Source: an uncultured Kordiimonas sp. (GTDB taxonomy: Bacteria; Pseudomonadota; Alphaproteobacteria; Sphingomonadales; Kordiimonadaceae). Taken from it: a stretch of 64,000 nt of DNA. Of the stretch, positions 49,921 to 57,819 are shown one piece after another (position 1 is the stretch's first letter; the number at the start of each line of letters is the position of its first letter). Made by a program: the position numbers and the translations under genes. Under the pieces are notes generated by a model. That model was not told the DNA's origin. It saw only the letters and a program-made list of their open reading frames with translations, and searched no databases. The DNA lies in NCBI GenBank assembly GCA_947503575.1, contig CANNDZ010000001.1:558001-622000 (forward strand), read 5' to 3'.

Positions 49921-50255
49921 TAAGCCGTTGGTTTAAGAGGTTGGGGCCGCGTCCTGAGGCGCGGCTTCTTTTGTTTCTGCGGGTTGTAACGCCACAGCCA
50001 GATCAAAATCTGGTCATCCATGAATTTCCTCGTTGCCGCTACTCATGCCCCGATAGTCAATCTCGGGTTGTTAGGACGGAATGACGGAGGGGTGTAGGCT
50101 ACGCAGAAAGAGCGATGCGGTGTGTTTGAATGTGCGACCAAAAAGCAGCCGAGCGCGCTCCCAAGCAGTATAAATTGATAGTTTAATGTTATTGTACTAT
50201 GTAAACGATTAGCTTCAACTCGTTGAATAAGCGAACTTGAGCTCATCAAACAACT

Positions 50256-51362
50256 GTGGGGATCAGGATGCAGCTGCTCAATCTCAATATCGATAAGATT
50301 ATAATTCATCAGGTATTCCGTCGAAACCAAGATGGCAAAGTCAAGCCCCTTCAAAGCCATGAATACACAGTGTTTGATCACAGTGCTATGACTGTATTTA
50401 AGCGGCGCGTTATTGATGCTTTGGGTGAGGGATCTAAAGCGGTGCAAATGGAAATAGTTGACCAGTGCGCTACTAGCGTATCAAAATTGGTCGATAGCAT
50501 GATTGATCAAGACCAAGAGACCTTTGCTGTTTCATCTTTTGATATTGCCACGAAGCTGGCCGACGCTCAACAAACAAGGTCTATCCCTGGTGGCATAGTT
50601 GTTGTTTTTACCGGCACTCAAGGTTCTTCGGCTAAGAAGTTTTTGGGGATAATTAAGGCTGAAGTTCACACGGGGTATGAGAAGAAAGTGCATCCCACTA
50701 CAAATGAAATCTCTCTAAAGTTTGTGGAAGAGCTGCTTCTAACGCCGGGCACGCGATTATATAAAACTGTCGGCTTTTTTGAAAAAGTTGATTGTGAAGA
50801 AACCGCTGACGACTTGAATGACAAGTGGGCGGTGATGATCTCAGATTATCAAATCAGTCAAGCTGATGGAAAAGCAGCAGCAAAGTACTTCTACGAAGAT
50901 TTTCTTGGTTGTGGTTATCCTAAGACAAACGCGCGTGTTACTAAACAGTTCTATGAAGTTACGTCCCAGTTTATTTCTAAACTCTCCGTTACTGAAGTAG
51001 AGAAAAGCCATCTTATAAATGCGCTGACAACCTATTTAAAAGCCGATGTTTCAAACGTTGTAAGCGCGTCAGAGTTTGCGCAAACCTATTTCAACGATTT
51101 AGCCACACAAGATGCCTATACAGGTTATGTGAAGAGCCAGGGGCTACCTACTACTGCGTTCACCAAAGACGTTGAGCACGTTGAGGGGAACTTGAACGTC
51201 CGCAAAGTAAGGTTTGGTAGTAACGTTAGAATCACGGCCCCATCAGAGGCTTTCAAAAACTTGGTTGAAATCAAAGAGATTGATGGTGAGCCCGATGAAT
51301 CCGGTGTGCGAGCAAAGTGGACGCAAATAATTGTTAAAGACAGAATTGTTAGACAAGAATGA
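50256..51362 (+). CDS. NdpA/YejK (37-kDa nucleoid-associated protein) family member; ATG alternative start at 50268
   Basis: Overall pattern of the NA37/NdpA family: N-terminal LNLNIDKIIIHQVFRR, KKFLGIIKAEVHTGYEKK, C-terminal KNLVEIKEIDGEPDESGVRAKWTQIIVKDRIV. Confidence 0.6.
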   Translation: MGIRMQLLNLNIDKIIIHQVFRRNQDGKVKPLQSHEYTVFDHSAMTVFKRRVIDALGEGSKAVQMEIVDQCATSVSKLVDSMIDQDQETFAVSSFDIATKLADAQQTRSIPGGIVVVFTGTQGSSAKKFLGIIKAEVHTGYEKKVHPTTNEISLKFVEELLLTPGTRLYKTVGFFEKVDCEETADDLNDKWAVMISDYQISQADGKAAAKYFYEDFLGCGYPKTNARVTKQFYEVTSQFISKLSVTEVEKSHLINALTTYLKADVSNVVSASEFAQTYFNDLATQDAYTGYVKSQGLPTTAFTKDVEHVEGNLNVRKVRFGSNVRITAPSEAFKNLVEIKEIDGEPDESGVRAKWTQIIVKDRIVRQE

Positions 51363-52351
51363 ACGAGTCCGAACTCAGATCCAAATGGACTTCTGAAAAA
51401 CTCATATATGAGCGCTGGGGGCAATTTATTATATCGAAGTTGTCTGAGGAGCTTGAGAGATGCGTCGATAACCTGGACCAGTTTCTCAAGATTCCACCTC
51501 GAGTTCGTGTCAAAACCGATGCCTCTTTAGTTGATAAAGCATTCTATCGTAAGAAGAATTATGAGGATCCGTATAACGATATTGAAGATAAAGTCGGCAT
51601 TCGCTTCGTTGTGCTTCTGATTGAAGACATAGAGATTATCAGAAATATAGTTGTTAATGCTGATGTTTGGGAATACGACGAGTGTCGAAATTTCGAAGCA
51701 GAGAGACGAAAAGATCCGCTGTTGTTCACCTATCAGTCAGTGCATTTCGTTTTGCGCCCGAAAACCCCGTTGACGCTCGATGGCCATACGATCTTAAGCC
51801 AAACTGCTTGCGAATTACAAATTCGCACACTATTGCAGCATGCCCATGCAGAACTAACCCATGACTCCATTTATAAGTCTGAGAGAACCGTAAAGCCCAA
51901 CGTGCATCGCACTGTGGCAAAGAGTATGGCTCTTATAGAAACCACTGATGAGTTTTTCTCCTCAGTAACCCGAGAATTAAATTACGGACCTTTGCAGGAA
52001 TACAGAATTGTTGAGCTGCTAGACTCGACCTTTATGACTTATACTGGCTTAACGCCGAATCTTCAGAAATCTTCGATAGTTATTTGGGATGCTTATGAAG
52101 ACTTAATAGATGAAAAACTCATAGAAAATATTCATAAAGACCTCATCAATAATAATGAATACAAATTCCTTTCAAGCACTTTGAAAGAACGATACACGGA
52201 AAATACATTTTATCAGCAAAGTATAATTATATTTCTCTACTGGATGCTGCTCACAAACAAGTCGCGTTTATACAGATATTGGCCGTTAGATGGCCGCGTT
52301 TTGGACCCTTTGGCAAATGACGTCGGAATTAGCAGTACTTGGGAAGTTTAA
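51359..52351 (+). CDS. RelA/SpoT-type (p)ppGpp synthetase domain protein, small alarmone synthetase/toxSAS-like
   Basis: RVRVKTDASLVDKAFYRKKNYEDPYNDIEDKVGIRFVVLL; G-loop TYQSVHFVLR; CELQIRTLLQHAHAELTHDSIYK; no HD hydrolase domain. Confidence 0.85.
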   Translation: MNESELRSKWTSEKLIYERWGQFIISKLSEELERCVDNLDQFLKIPPRVRVKTDASLVDKAFYRKKNYEDPYNDIEDKVGIRFVVLLIEDIEIIRNIVVNADVWEYDECRNFEAERRKDPLLFTYQSVHFVLRPKTPLTLDGHTILSQTACELQIRTLLQHAHAELTHDSIYKSERTVKPNVHRTVAKSMALIETTDEFFSSVTRELNYGPLQEYRIVELLDSTFMTYTGLTPNLQKSSIVIWDAYEDLIDEKLIENIHKDLINNNEYKFLSSTLKERYTENTFYQQSIIIFLYWMLLTNKSRLYRYWPLDGRVLDPLANDVGISSTWEV

Positions 52352-52412: not shown

Positions 52413-54215
52413 ATGACTGACCAAAAACACATTCGCAATTTCTCGATCATTGCCCACATCGACCACGGCAAATCCACGCTCGCGGACCGCATGATCCAGC
52501 GCACCGGCGCGCTGTCCGACCGCGAGATGCAGGCCCAAGTGCTCGATAACATGGATATCGAGCGCGAGCGCGGCATCACCATCAAGGCGCAGACCGTGCG
52601 GCTGGATTACACCGCGCAGGACGGGCAGCAATATGTGCTGAACCTGATGGACACGCCGGGCCATGTGGATTTCGCTTATGAGGTTTCCCGCTGTCTGGCG
52701 GCATGCGAAGGCTCGCTGCTGGTGGTGGATGCAAGCCAGGGAGTGGAGGCGCAAACGCTGGCGAACGTGTATCAGGCCATTGATAACGACCATGAAATTG
52801 TGCCGGTGCTGAACAAAATTGACCTGCCCGCCGCCGAGCCAGAGCGCGTGCGCACCCAAATTGAAGATGTGATCGGCATTGATGCGTCTGACGCCATTGA
52901 ATGCTCCGCCAAATCCGGCCTCGGCATTGATGATGTGCTCGAATCTGTCGTGACCCGCCTGCCTGCACCCGCCGGGGACCCGGACGCGCCCCTAAAGGCG
53001 CTGCTGGTTGATAGCTGGTATGACGCTTACCTCGGTGTGATGGTCCTTATCCGCGTGATTGATGGCAGCATCAAAAAAGGCCAGACCATCAAGATGGTCA
53101 ACGCAGATAGCGAACACCAGGTCGAGCGTGTGGGCGTGTTTACGCCCAAGGGTGTGCAGGTGCCGTCCCTTGGCCCCGGCGAGGTTGGCTTTATCACCGC
53201 CAGTATCAAGGAAGTGGCGGACACCAACGTGGGCGACACCATCACTGACGCCAAAAAGCCCTGCGCCGAGGCATTGCCCGGCTTTAAGCCCAGCCAGTCT
53301 GTGGTGTTTTGTGGCCTCTTCCCGGCCGACACGTCCGAGTATGAGGCGCTGAAGGAGGCGCTCGCGAAACTGCGGTTAAATGACGCCAGCTTTGAGTTTG
53401 AAACCGAAAGCAGCACCGCGCTTGGGTTTGGTTTCCGCTGCGGGTTCCTTGGTATGTTGCACCTGGAAATCATTCAGGAACGCATCACCCGTGAATTTGA
53501 CATTGAGCTCATTACCACCAGCCCCAGCGTGATTTACAAAATCCACATGACCAACGGCGAGGTGATTGAACTGCACAACCCCGCCGACATGCCGGACGTG
53601 GTGCGGGTGGACCACATCGAAGAACCTTGGATCAACGCCACCATATTGGTGCCGGATGAGCATTTGGGCACGGTGCTGAAACTGTGTGAGGACAAACGCG
53701 GCATCCAGCAGGACCTGACCTATGTGGGCGCGCGTGCGATGCTGAAATACAAGCTGCCCCTCAATGAAGTGGTGTATGATTTTTATGATCGGCTGAAGTC
53801 GGTCAGCCGGGGCTACGCCAGCTTTGACTATGACATGGCGGGGTACGAACAATCAGACCTGGTGAAAATGTCAATTTTGGTGAACGCAGAGCCGGTGGAT
53901 GCGCTGTCGATGCTGGTGCACCGCACCCAGGCCGACAGCCGGGGCCGCGCCCTGTGTGACCGCTTGAAGGACCTGATCCCGCGCCAGCTCTTTAAAATTC
54001 CGATCCAGGCGGCCATTGGCGGCAAGGTGATTGCCCGTGAAACCATTTCGGCCATGCGCAAGGACGTGACCGCCAAATGTTACGGCGGCGACGTGACGCG
54101 CAAGAAAAAGCTGCTCGAGAAGCAGAAAAAGGGTAAGGCCAAAATGCGCATGTACGGCAAGGTGGAAATTCCGCACAGCGCCTTCATCGCGGCCCTCAAA
54201 ATGCGCGAGAGTTAG
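52413..54215 (+). CDS. lepA: Elongation factor 4 (LepA)
   Basis: [60 protein letters not shown]. Confidence 0.98.
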
Positions 54216-54297: not shown

Positions 54298-55074
54298 TTA
54301 TTCAATTTTACCTTTGGATATAAGTAAGATTCTGTCGTTATCAGATTTACACTTATATGAATAATATTGGTCTTTACCAATTGGAGCTAAGCCAAGTTCG
54401 CGAATGATTTGCGAATCTACTTCTCCATTCAATATCGCGATTTCTTCTCGTGCCAATGCGTCTCTTGCGCCACCATTCTTTCTAATCCTTTTCATATAAT
54501 CTTTCTGCTGAGCAACCACAGCAATAACGTCTCTAGTAATTGGGGTCTCTAATAAATTTCCAAAAAGATATTGTAAACGTTGACTGCCAGACTTCTTGGA
54601 AAAAATAGCATCTATAGTTTCAGAAGAAATGCCTTCCCAGAAATTGCGGGCTAGTTCCTCATCTTTGACTAACCAGGTTACATTTCCGAAACTCACGTTA
54701 TCGCTTGAATTTATCAAGCCAAATGAGCACTTGGAACTAGCTCCATCATAAAACACCACCAGGAAAACACTCGGTTCTTTAGCGTGTGGGGCATTCCACA
54801 CATTGCTGAAGTTTAATATAACAGCGACATTTGTACCGTTTATTTCCACGCCGTTGCGGTTTCGTGTGGTGCGTAATTGGTGTTGAATCAAAATTTCGAT
54901 TTTGGTGCCAATATATGCAATTTCAACTTCGTTAAGTTCCGCCACAGAGCGACGACCAGATCGAAGTGTGTCAATGACTTCGTCGAGAGCAATTCTTAGT
55001 GTAGCCAATAGTGCTTGCTTAAGGTTGTCAGGGCCACCAAATGCCAGTTCTATTTTTTCCCTAACTTGTTGCAT
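54298..55074 (-). CDS. NaeI-like type II restriction endonuclease family protein
   Basis: AYIGTKIEILIQHQL catalytic-E region and C-terminal VVAQQKDYMKRIRKNGGARDALAREEIAILNG...ELGLAP match my recollection of NaeI; adjacent to C5 methylase. Confidence 0.7.
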   Translation of the reverse strand: MQQVREKIELAFGGPDNLKQALLATLRIALDEVIDTLRSGRRSVAELNEVEIAYIGTKIEILIQHQLRTTRNRNGVEINGTNVAVILNFSNVWNAPHAKEPSVFLVVFYDGASSKCSFGLINSSDNVSFGNVTWLVKDEELARNFWEGISSETIDAIFSKKSGSQRLQYLFGNLLETPITRDVIAVVAQQKDYMKRIRKNGGARDALAREEIAILNGEVDSQIIRELGLAPIGKDQYYSYKCKSDNDRILLISKGKIE

Positions 55075-55145
55075 GATCTACCTGTCAAATTAGCTGGTAT
55101 GGTTTTACTGGCCATTCCAAAATTATTTAGTGCTCATTAACTATA

Positions 55146-56120
55146 TCACCTGCTGATACGGAAAACACGTCGCTTAGCTGTAATTGTTTTCTTGATCTCA
55201 TTCGCTACTGCTTGCGCAACGGGCGCTGGGAAAGCATTTCCCACTTGCCTATATTGCGGTGTCTTTTTGCCAGAAAATATCCAGTCATCTGGAAATCCTT
55301 GTAAGCGAGCAACCATTCTTACAGTAAGTTTGGGCATGCCAACAAAGTCTCTTTCTGGCGCAGACTCAGCTATTAATTTCCCGTTTACACCAAGGCTTGC
55401 CCAGGCACGTTTTGCTCTGGTCGGGCCTAAGTCAGGTCCACCGTGTTTCATCGATCCACCAACAATGGTTGGGGCGATTTCATTGGCTTTGTCTTTCCAC
55501 TTTTTCGCACCAAGCCAGCCATTTGCCGACATGAGGTCAAATAGAACTTCACCTACAGGCGGTGGATTTATTAGGTTTGGTGTTGGCCAAGAAAAGTTTT
55601 CAGCAAACTCATTTTTTATGGCGACAATTATTACTCTGGGGCGCAACTGCGATACACCATAATCAGATGCATTTAGAAGTCGCCATTCAGCCACGTAACC
55701 CAGTTTTTTTAGCTGTTGTTTTAATCCATTGCGATAATCTTCAAAAACTGTGGAGAGAAAGCCCCTAACGTTTTCCAGCATGATGGCTGTAGGTTTCGTG
55801 GCCTCGATGATTTGCAGGGCAGAAGGAAATAAGTTTCGTTCGTCTCTTTCACCCAATTGTTTCCCTGCAACGGAGAACGGGGGGCAAGGTAGCCCGCCGG
55901 CCAATAAATCTACCCCTTTAAATTTGCCCGCTTGGGAGACAAACTCCCGGATATCTTGGTTTGCTATGTTCCATTCTCGTCTGTTAGCCGACAGGGTATT
56001 ACAACAATGCTGATCTATTTCGACTAATATTTGATGATTAAATCCAGCACCTTCTAATCCCAATGCTTGGCCACCAGCCCCTGCACATAGTTCTACTGAA
56101 GTAAGCAACCCACTCTCCAC
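55146..56120 (-). CDS. DNA (cytosine-5)-methyltransferase
   Basis: LCAGAGGQALGLEGAGF motif I; GGLPCPPFSVAGKQ motif IV; MLENVRG motif VI; RQVGNAFPAPVA motif X. Confidence 0.95.
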   Translation of the reverse strand: MESGLLTSVELCAGAGGQALGLEGAGFNHQILVEIDQHCCNTLSANRREWNIANQDIREFVSQAGKFKGVDLLAGGLPCPPFSVAGKQLGERDERNLFPSALQIIEATKPTAIMLENVRGFLSTVFEDYRNGLKQQLKKLGYVAEWRLLNASDYGVSQLRPRVIIVAIKNEFAENFSWPTPNLINPPPVGEVLFDLMSANGWLGAKKWKDKANEIAPTIVGGSMKHGGPDLGPTRAKRAWASLGVNGKLIAESAPERDFVGMPKLTVRMVARLQGFPDDWIFSGKKTPQYRQVGNAFPAPVAQAVANEIKKTITAKRRVFRISR

Positions 56121-56175
56121 TCACAACAAATGTTCATATTATGTTCTTTTTGATTATGTAGTGCAAAATAAACAT

Positions 56176-56676
56176 TTATGTCAAATATTCTTGCAACGCT
56201 TTTTCGTATTCACAAAGCGTCGCAAACAAAAAAGACTGATTATTGAGTAAAACGGAGAAACCCATGAGGTGAGCTGTTTGCCCCTGCAGCTGTGTGTGTG
56301 CGAGACTATCTCTTCTAGTTTTCAAATCACCCAGTGTCGACTTGAGCCGTATGCGTCTAGCGTCTCCGACCCTGTCTTCTATGCAGTGCGTACCATGCAT
56401 GCCCACCATATGGATTAACATCATCCTAAAATGTTTCTCATAGTCGAAGCCATAGACTTTTTTCACGACTGTTTTGAATTCATCATCGAAATCGGTTCGC
56501 CGAAGACATTTTTGTCCGTATTTCAGCATTAGCTTGTCGACTTCTTCCTCAATCCAGCCACATAATTCGATTAATGCCACTTTACTTAAATAGCGCTGAT
56601 CTACGGGCGATCTTGAGGAGTTAAAACTTGCTTCCAGTCGCTTAAGTGACTGGACAATTTCATAACGCGCAACCAT
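56176..56676 (-). CDS. HEPN-like domain protein
   Basis: Small all-helical protein with TRRDSLAHTQ (RX4H) near the C-terminus; 3 nt downstream of DUF262 gene. Confidence 0.6.
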   Translation of the reverse strand: MVARYEIVQSLKRLEASFNSSRSPVDQRYLSKVALIELCGWIEEEVDKLMLKYGQKCLRRTDFDDEFKTVVKKVYGFDYEKHFRMMLIHMVGMHGTHCIEDRVGDARRIRLKSTLGDLKTRRDSLAHTQLQGQTAHLMGFSVLLNNQSFLFATLCEYEKALQEYLT

Positions 56677-56679
56677 TGA

Positions 56680-57819
56680 TTATGGCCCAAATAAATCAAT
56701 GGCAGTCTGAATTCTTCCCCTGACACGGTCCTTCTTTGACAGGCCTTCCTTCAGCGCTTCATTTGAGAAATTAGGATGTTTTAGAAGTCTCAGCCATTTC
56801 ACTTGCGCAGCTTTATCAGTACTTCCTGCCAATTCTGATAGATTAGATATAATACCTACCAAAGCGGCTTCTAAGACAGCGATCGGCGGCCTATTTTTTA
56901 CGTCTTCATTCATGCATTTTTTGTACAGGATTGAAACCGCACTATTGAACAAGCCCCTTTTGTTATCTAAAAAGTCGCTAGACGCATTTTGATGCTTAAG
57001 CATGTAGTTGTTTAAAAACTTTGCAACATTGCCCTCGTATAATTGCAAATTATCATGTAGAGCGAATACCCGTAAAATCAATTCTTGTTTGACAAACCTT
57101 AAGTTTTTCCCGGGCTTCATGCCGTTTATCTGACGCCACTCGTCGTTCTGGTCCAATTCTCTCAGAAGCATGTTAAGCGAACCGCTAAAGATGCAATTTC
57201 TAATCTCTTGATTGTTGAGTTTTTGTCCGCCCGAGTTCAACCTGTGAAATATCGTAAACAGATATTCCATATGTCGCATTTTAGAAAAATCGCAACGAAG
57301 AACGTTTACTGGAATTTGTGTATTCTCGATCAAGGAATGATACCTTGGGAGCAAAGATTTTTGCGTTTTTTTACTTGCTGTCTGTTTGCCTGCTAACTTT
57401 GGGTCAATATCGTCAAGAGTACTAAGTCTCCAGGGGTTTTTGACATCTAAGAACCGTATTACTGTTGAAATGCGTTGCAAACCATCAATGACCTGCCATT
57501 GATTTTGTCGATAATCGAAAGCAAAGCACATACTGGGGATTGGGAGTTGTTTGGCCAAGGAGTCAATAAATCGTGTTTGTGCAACTCCATTCCAGACGAA
57601 GTCTCTTTGGAAATCAGGTTGTATTTGCAGGACGCCTTGATGGTGCATCCTAAATAGGTCTGCGCATGACCTTAACTCGTTGTATGAAACTATATCCGAG
57701 GGTGGTGTTTCATTTGAATCGTCGTCCAAATATCCACTTTCACGAAGTTCTTTTTCGTCTTCTTCGCTAAATTCTTCATGGCCACCACTTTCAGTTTCAT
57801 CGTCCATATGTGTCACCAT
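56680..57819 (-). CDS. DUF262 (GmrSD N-terminal/ParB-like) protein (alternative start 57807)
   Basis: LQIQPDFQRDFVWNGVAQTRFIDSLAKQLPIPSMCFAFD...WQVIDGLQRISTVIRFLD; no C-terminal DUF1524-like HNH seen. Confidence 0.88.
   Translation of the reverse strand: MVTHMDDETESGGHEEFSEEDEKELRESGYLDDDSNETPPSDIVSYNELRSCADLFRMHHQGVLQIQPDFQRDFVWNGVAQTRFIDSLAKQLPIPSMCFAFDYRQNQWQVIDGLQRISTVIRFLDVKNPWRLSTLDDIDPKLAGKQTASKKTQKSLLPRYHSLIENTQIPVNVLRCDFSKMRHMEYLFTIFHRLNSGGQKLNNQEIRNCIFSGSLNMLLRELDQNDEWRQINGMKPGKNLRFVKQELILRVFALHDNLQLYEGNVAKFLNNYMLKHQNASSDFLDNKRGLFNSAVSILYKKCMNEDVKNRPPIAVLEAALVGIISNLSELAGSTDKAAQVKWLRLLKHPNFSNEALKEGLSKKDRVRGRIQTAIDLFGP

Follow-up and report, generated by a model that had tools for sequence, protein, structure and literature searches.

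A conserved, mobile gene pair of a divergent YejK/NdpA-type protein and a small alarmone synthetase with a likely role in defence

The window analysed here, a 64,000-nucleotide stretch of DNA from an uncultured Kordiimonas sp., carries a gene for a divergent YejK/NdpA-type protein followed directly by one for a stand-alone small alarmone synthetase (SAS), and the two form a real, conserved and mobile pair. A role in defence is likely, and we put at roughly 0.6 the probability that the pair is a mobile two-gene anti-phage (abortive infection) system in which the NdpA-like protein both restrains and triggers the SAS. The following points favour the defence reading: the obligate pairing, with conserved order and spacing, matched divergence and conserved active-site residues; the low GC content and the prophage, island, plasmid and Tn7-like settings; the defence genes near the pair in the window, with AriA/AriB-like and ImmA/PIN pairs in the same slot of sister genomes; and the validation of a YejK domain in defence, together with the precedent of CapRel (including its sensing through a host factor) and a match to the candidate system PDC-S33. 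Counted against it were a SAS profile nearer to RelQ/RelP than to CapRel, the failure to find a small antitoxin-like gene or a pZFD-type domain, and the extra SLATT gene of some loci. The features of the locus are as follows.

49943..49968 (+), terminator-like hairpin and T run that separate the pair from the upstream hydrolase gene (consensus scan; not functional evidence by itself)
50268..51362 (+), NdpA/YejK-like gene, 364 aa, pI 5.8, proposed controller/sensor (Pfam NA37, Foldseek, and alignment of 17 relatives from ATG 50268)
51359..51362 (+), ATGA stop/start overlap of the two genes (sequence)
51359..52351 (+), SAS gene, 330 aa, RelA/SpoT synthetase domain and no hydrolase, proposed effector (Pfam, structure model and invariant residues)
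52413..54215 (+), lepA, core gene with a 600-aa ORF, right border of the slot and outside the system (matched in 19 of 20 genomes of the genus)
54298-57819 (-), defence cluster past lepA: NaeI-type restriction endonuclease, C5 cytosine methyltransferase, PD-T4-2 B and A

The two plus-strand genes of the pair are placed between a dienelactone-hydrolase-type gene (DLH) and lepA, and their GC content (0.43 for the NdpA-like gene, 0.41 for the SAS gene) compares with 0.62 and 0.58 for the flanking core genes. The pair is probably a transcription unit of its own, since the terminator-like hairpin follows the upstream hydrolase gene; a search for operator-type inverted repeats upstream of the pair found none. 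An earlier note on this DNA had the first gene start at GTG 50256, a start that was rejected in favour of ATG 50268, where most relatives align from residue 1. Both reading frames and the 4-bp overlap that joins them lie where that note had placed them. Gene order and overlap do not tell which of the two proteins controls the other.

The first protein is a divergent member of the YejK/NdpA (NA37) family. It matched the Pfam NA37 model with an E-value of 3e-12 and 47 bits (cut-off 24.6), so that the NdpA-like assignment passed the HMM search that had been named for it beforehand, and a Foldseek search with its AlphaFold2 model (17 sequences, pLDDT 77) gave E. coli YejK (9be2) as the sole significant PDB match (E 3.8e-6, probability 1.00), at a modest TM-score of 0.41–0.44. 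Searches of Pfam, NCBIfam, PADLOC and PHROGs revealed no homology to a known toxSAS antitoxin and returned nucleoid-associated or unknown families only; we know of no toxSAS antitoxin that this protein resembles. Among its relatives, contacts have been reported between YejK and both gyrase and topoisomerase IV, and between NdpA and ParB (PMC9927451). NdpA2 lifts the repression that MvaT exerts on ICE PAPI-1 transfer; it raised the affinity of MvaT for a promoter and by itself did not shift the promoter DNA tested (PMC8565334).

The second protein matched Pfam RelA_SpoT (E 1e-12, 48.7 bits, cut-off 27) and bears the motifs RVKTDASLVDK, TYQSVH and CELQIRTLLQHAHAELTHD. No HD hydrolase domain was found in it, and its structure model (pLDDT 81) includes a long N-terminal helix, a low-confidence stretch around residues 170–210 and an all-helical C-terminus of about 120 residues (about 211–330), so that the synthetase motifs, the missing hydrolase and the helical C-terminal extension first read from the letters were all recovered. 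The ATP-binding and catalytic residues of FaRel2 (R64, K66, S70, K74, D90, G93, R95, Y128, E145 and Q147; PMC11782079) map by motif spacing to R50, K52, S56, K60, D77, G80, R82, Y125, E152 and Q154 of the SAS, and all of these are invariant in the 37 non-redundant loci except for one G-to-A change at G80; the likely counterpart of FaRel2 R77 is R64, one residue off (33 of 37 loci). Because these residues are conserved, the SAS is expected to be an active enzyme. They are common to the classes that pyrophosphorylate adenosine nucleotides and tRNA 3'-CCA ends, and the acceptor is not readable from the sequence. Foldseek matched the model to RelQ/SAS1 and RelP/SAS2 and, more weakly, to CapRel, and the profile of the SAS likewise ranked CapRel below the ordinary (p)ppGpp synthetases RelQ/RelP; the best two alignments to CapRel span 147 columns only. 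A fusion to a pseudo-zinc-finger sensor, as in CapRel, was not found, the C-terminus being all-helical in the model. A longer RelA/SpoT-domain ORF (537 aa, 34% identity to the SAS core) was seen in the same genus (L017, G006:C1:300756-301172), with no NdpA neighbour within the stretch examined.

Relatives were gathered from genome contigs, whole genomes, plasmids, E. coli and IMG/VR, and the conserved pairing for which the earlier note had proposed a search was found throughout: an NdpA-like gene lies directly upstream of the SAS gene in all 42 intact loci, the window included (37 at 95% redundancy), at a spacing of -11 to +8 bp, with the same 4-bp overlap in 27 of them. The sources comprise Alpha- and Gammaproteobacteria, plasmids, prophages and IMG/VR, and wherever the sequence upstream of a SAS relative in the subfamily is long enough, an NdpA-like gene ends within that distance of the SAS start. 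The reverse also holds, in that the four plasmid records carrying NdpA (4/4) have an adjacent SAS and the IMG/VR loci with NdpA always do unless the contig ends. A chance neighbourhood was rejected on these counts. Pairwise distances of the two proteins across the 37 loci are strongly correlated (Mantel r = 0.97, with 0 of 2000 permutations as high), a figure that is partly the shared descent of a linked pair, and the main clades are common to both trees; such matched divergence argues against frequent exchange of partners. The SAS subfamily occurs in 3 of 399 sampled Pseudomonadota genomes, the window's own among them, and when 151 genomes from relatives of the window were searched, the full-length form was confined, within the genus, to the window's genome. 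In annotated phages NdpA had no match, and the matches of the SAS were all distant and partial. Many NdpA-SAS pairs were found in IMG/VR; a single-sequence scan of that collection with NdpA gave no match. One copy, in Neisseria gonorrhoeae (L025 5934-7995, a 2.17-Mb record filed as a plasmid and evidently a chromosome), looks decayed, its NdpA-like gene being interrupted by an in-frame stop and its SAS matches split over two reading frames, and was set aside.

The locations of the pair are those of mobile DNA. In E. coli, the pair neighbours a late-control gene in a P2-like prophage (strain L725, L061), adjoins the integrase of a guaA-associated element that carries conjugation genes, and occupies tRNA-Thr islands that follow proA. 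Plasmid copies are known from Klebsiella, where the plasmid is conjugative, and from Ochrobactrum. A Tn7-like element (L005) has TnsA, a Mu/rve transposase and TniB beside the pair, integrases lie near it in three further loci (L007, L009 and L095), a Mrr-type nuclease accompanies it in L027, and a tmRNA gene is close by in L006. The DLH-lepA interval varies between strains of the window's genus and is a slot used by defence genes: in sister genomes it holds genes matching the AriA and AriB models (PARIS-like; L065 4901-7071), an IrrE/ImmA-type gene with DUF4411 (an ImmA/PIN pair; L063 8273-9876) or other genes (L064). In the window's defence cluster past lepA, the best PADLOC match of the C5 cytosine methyltransferase was DruM, and the PD-T4-2 genes encode a HEPN-like protein (B) and a GmrSD N-domain (A).

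The pair might work as follows. Translational coupling would produce the NdpA-like protein and the SAS jointly, and the two would work as a complex in which the SAS is kept inactive by its partner as long as the cell is uninfected. Infection would release this brake by disturbing DNA topology, the nucleoid or those nucleoid proteins with which NdpA-type proteins are in contact; the freed SAS would use ATP to pyrophosphorylate either a purine nucleotide or tRNA 3' ends, and both growth and phage production would stop. In Enterobacter chengduensis, CapRel senses a phage protein only when this is complexed with host FtsZ (PMC13423816), and this account, taken together with those of NdpA2 and MvaT, of YejK with gyrase and topoisomerase IV, and of NdpA with ParB, suggests a guard model in which the NdpA-like protein would watch the nucleoid machinery and the SAS would act. 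Activity, substrate, toxicity, complex formation, direction of control, trigger and phage protection are matters that we infer for this pair.

The nearest known systems share parts of this design. In toxSAS (FaRel2/ATfaRel2) and CapRel, as in the pair, a stand-alone SAS core carries these ATP-binding and catalytic residues, FaRel2 being encoded in a two-gene operon and CapRel being a sensor-controlled SAS in phage defence; the partner here, however, is a 364-aa protein of the YejK/NdpA fold and not a pseudo-zinc-finger or other known antitoxin, and the SAS has its own helical C-terminus and a core nearer RelQ/RelP than CapRel by score. The proposal of a toxSAS-type two-gene system stands as regards a conserved unit, a predicted active enzyme and mobile, defence-associated contexts, whereas the toxin-antitoxin label was not established, given that core, a partner unlike toxSAS antitoxins and a subset of loci (below) that fits signalling equally well. 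Housekeeping RelP/RelQ and chromosomal YejK share the folds of the two proteins, but the pair differs from them in being horizontally mobile and obligately paired, with an extended SAS and a divergent NdpA. The PADLOC candidate model PDC-S33 matches the synthetase core, with E 1e-6 in the window and 1e-13 in L061, although weakly and over the core only, and the PADLOC output mentions no NdpA partner. No description of NdpA/YejK paired with a SAS was found in the full-text literature searched, a scope outside which most subscription papers and preprints fall; the earlier note, too, knew of none.

A YejK-domain unit has been validated in phage defence by DefensePredictor (PMC13092281), and the NCBIfam model DS1_1 presumably represents its first gene (DS-1). 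DS-1 resembles the pair in that a YejK/NA37 protein is encoded first in a multi-gene unit, and this parallel supports the part of the earlier proposal that cast the NdpA-like partner as sensor or controller. The gene content of DS-1 is taken here from two DS1_1 relatives and the model name; in both of these genomes with true DS1_1 members the next gene encodes a membrane protein, not a SAS. Membership of the window protein in DS-1 was rejected (DS1_1 E 0.0027, 16.7 bits against a 330-bit cut-off, and a different partner), and among the 399 Pseudomonadota genomes the model gave sub-cut-off matches only, to ordinary YejK-type proteins. YejK-type proteins thus appear to have no fewer than two different partners.

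An unlikely but not negligible reading makes the SAS the source of a nucleotide messenger that opens a membrane pore, with the NdpA-like protein as sensor. A gene for a two-TM SLATT/DUF4231 protein flanks the pair in 13 of the 42 loci (9 of 37 non-redundant). It mostly lies upstream; in L095 it is downstream and shares one base with the SAS gene, in L030 it is on the opposite strand, and an overlap with the pair also occurs in L059. The encoded proteins match the CBASS 2TM effector and Pfam SLATT_4/DUF4231 models weakly to moderately, some of them below the curated cut-off, and SLATT is predicted to be a nucleotide-responsive pore (PMC7159879). These loci recall CBASS and related systems with SLATT/2TM effectors, in which a nucleotide-making enzyme is likewise joined by a two-TM SLATT gene, but the synthetase here is a RelA/SpoT-type pyrophosphokinase and not a CD-NTase. 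Since they add a SLATT gene, the SAS in them may produce a signal and leave the final effect to another protein. Some three in four loci, however, lack the gene, and none was found beside the window pair or anywhere in its clade; on this reading the two-gene form would need another host target or be a reduced version. In an E. coli tRNA-Thr island (strain SCU-102), DprA-family and RecQ-family genes directly follow the SLATT-NdpA-SAS genes (L058 10977-14398) and are possible further defence genes.

The pair might instead be a toxin-antitoxin module, SAS as toxin and NdpA as antitoxin, that retains its island or plasmid and has no part in phage defence. The plasmid, island and prophage locations would suit this, and toxSAS toxins do occur in toxin-antitoxin operons (PMC11782079), but the shared slot with defence genes and the parallel with DS-1 would go unexplained, and the large, conserved NdpA partner does not look like the small antitoxins that are typical; we consider it improbable. 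Least probable is a role in regulating the mobile element itself, with the NdpA-like protein tuning conjugation or H-NS-type silencing in the manner of NdpA2 in PAPI-1 and the SAS providing a link to (p)ppGpp: the action of NdpA2 on MvaT is a precedent, yet the pair sits in unrelated elements and at a chromosomal slot with no transfer genes seen, and NdpA2 has no paired SAS in the account used here (PMC8565334).

Should the anti-phage reading hold, the pair would add a new kind of controller to SAS-based immunity, and the native E. coli copies make a test direct. To our knowledge, YejK/NdpA proteins are widespread, yet without a clear role; their obligate link with a SAS on mobile elements gives them a testable one, infection sensing at the nucleoid. 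The SLATT subset would link alarmone chemistry to pore-type effectors. More tentatively, and with the odds against it, YejK/NdpA-fold proteins may form a distinct immune family, guards of nucleoid or DNA-topology machinery with exchangeable effectors: a SAS in the window, a SAS with a nucleotide-gated SLATT pore in a sister clade and a membrane protein in DS-1. In that case the SLATT form would, as far as we know, be the first alarmone-gated pore immune system. Among the loci collected, five (L031, L032, L051, L056, the DNA of which had no match in the E. coli genomes, and L057) carry YejK-family genes with a relative of the DS-1-type membrane protein nearby, suggesting a wider family of pairs of YejK and a membrane protein.
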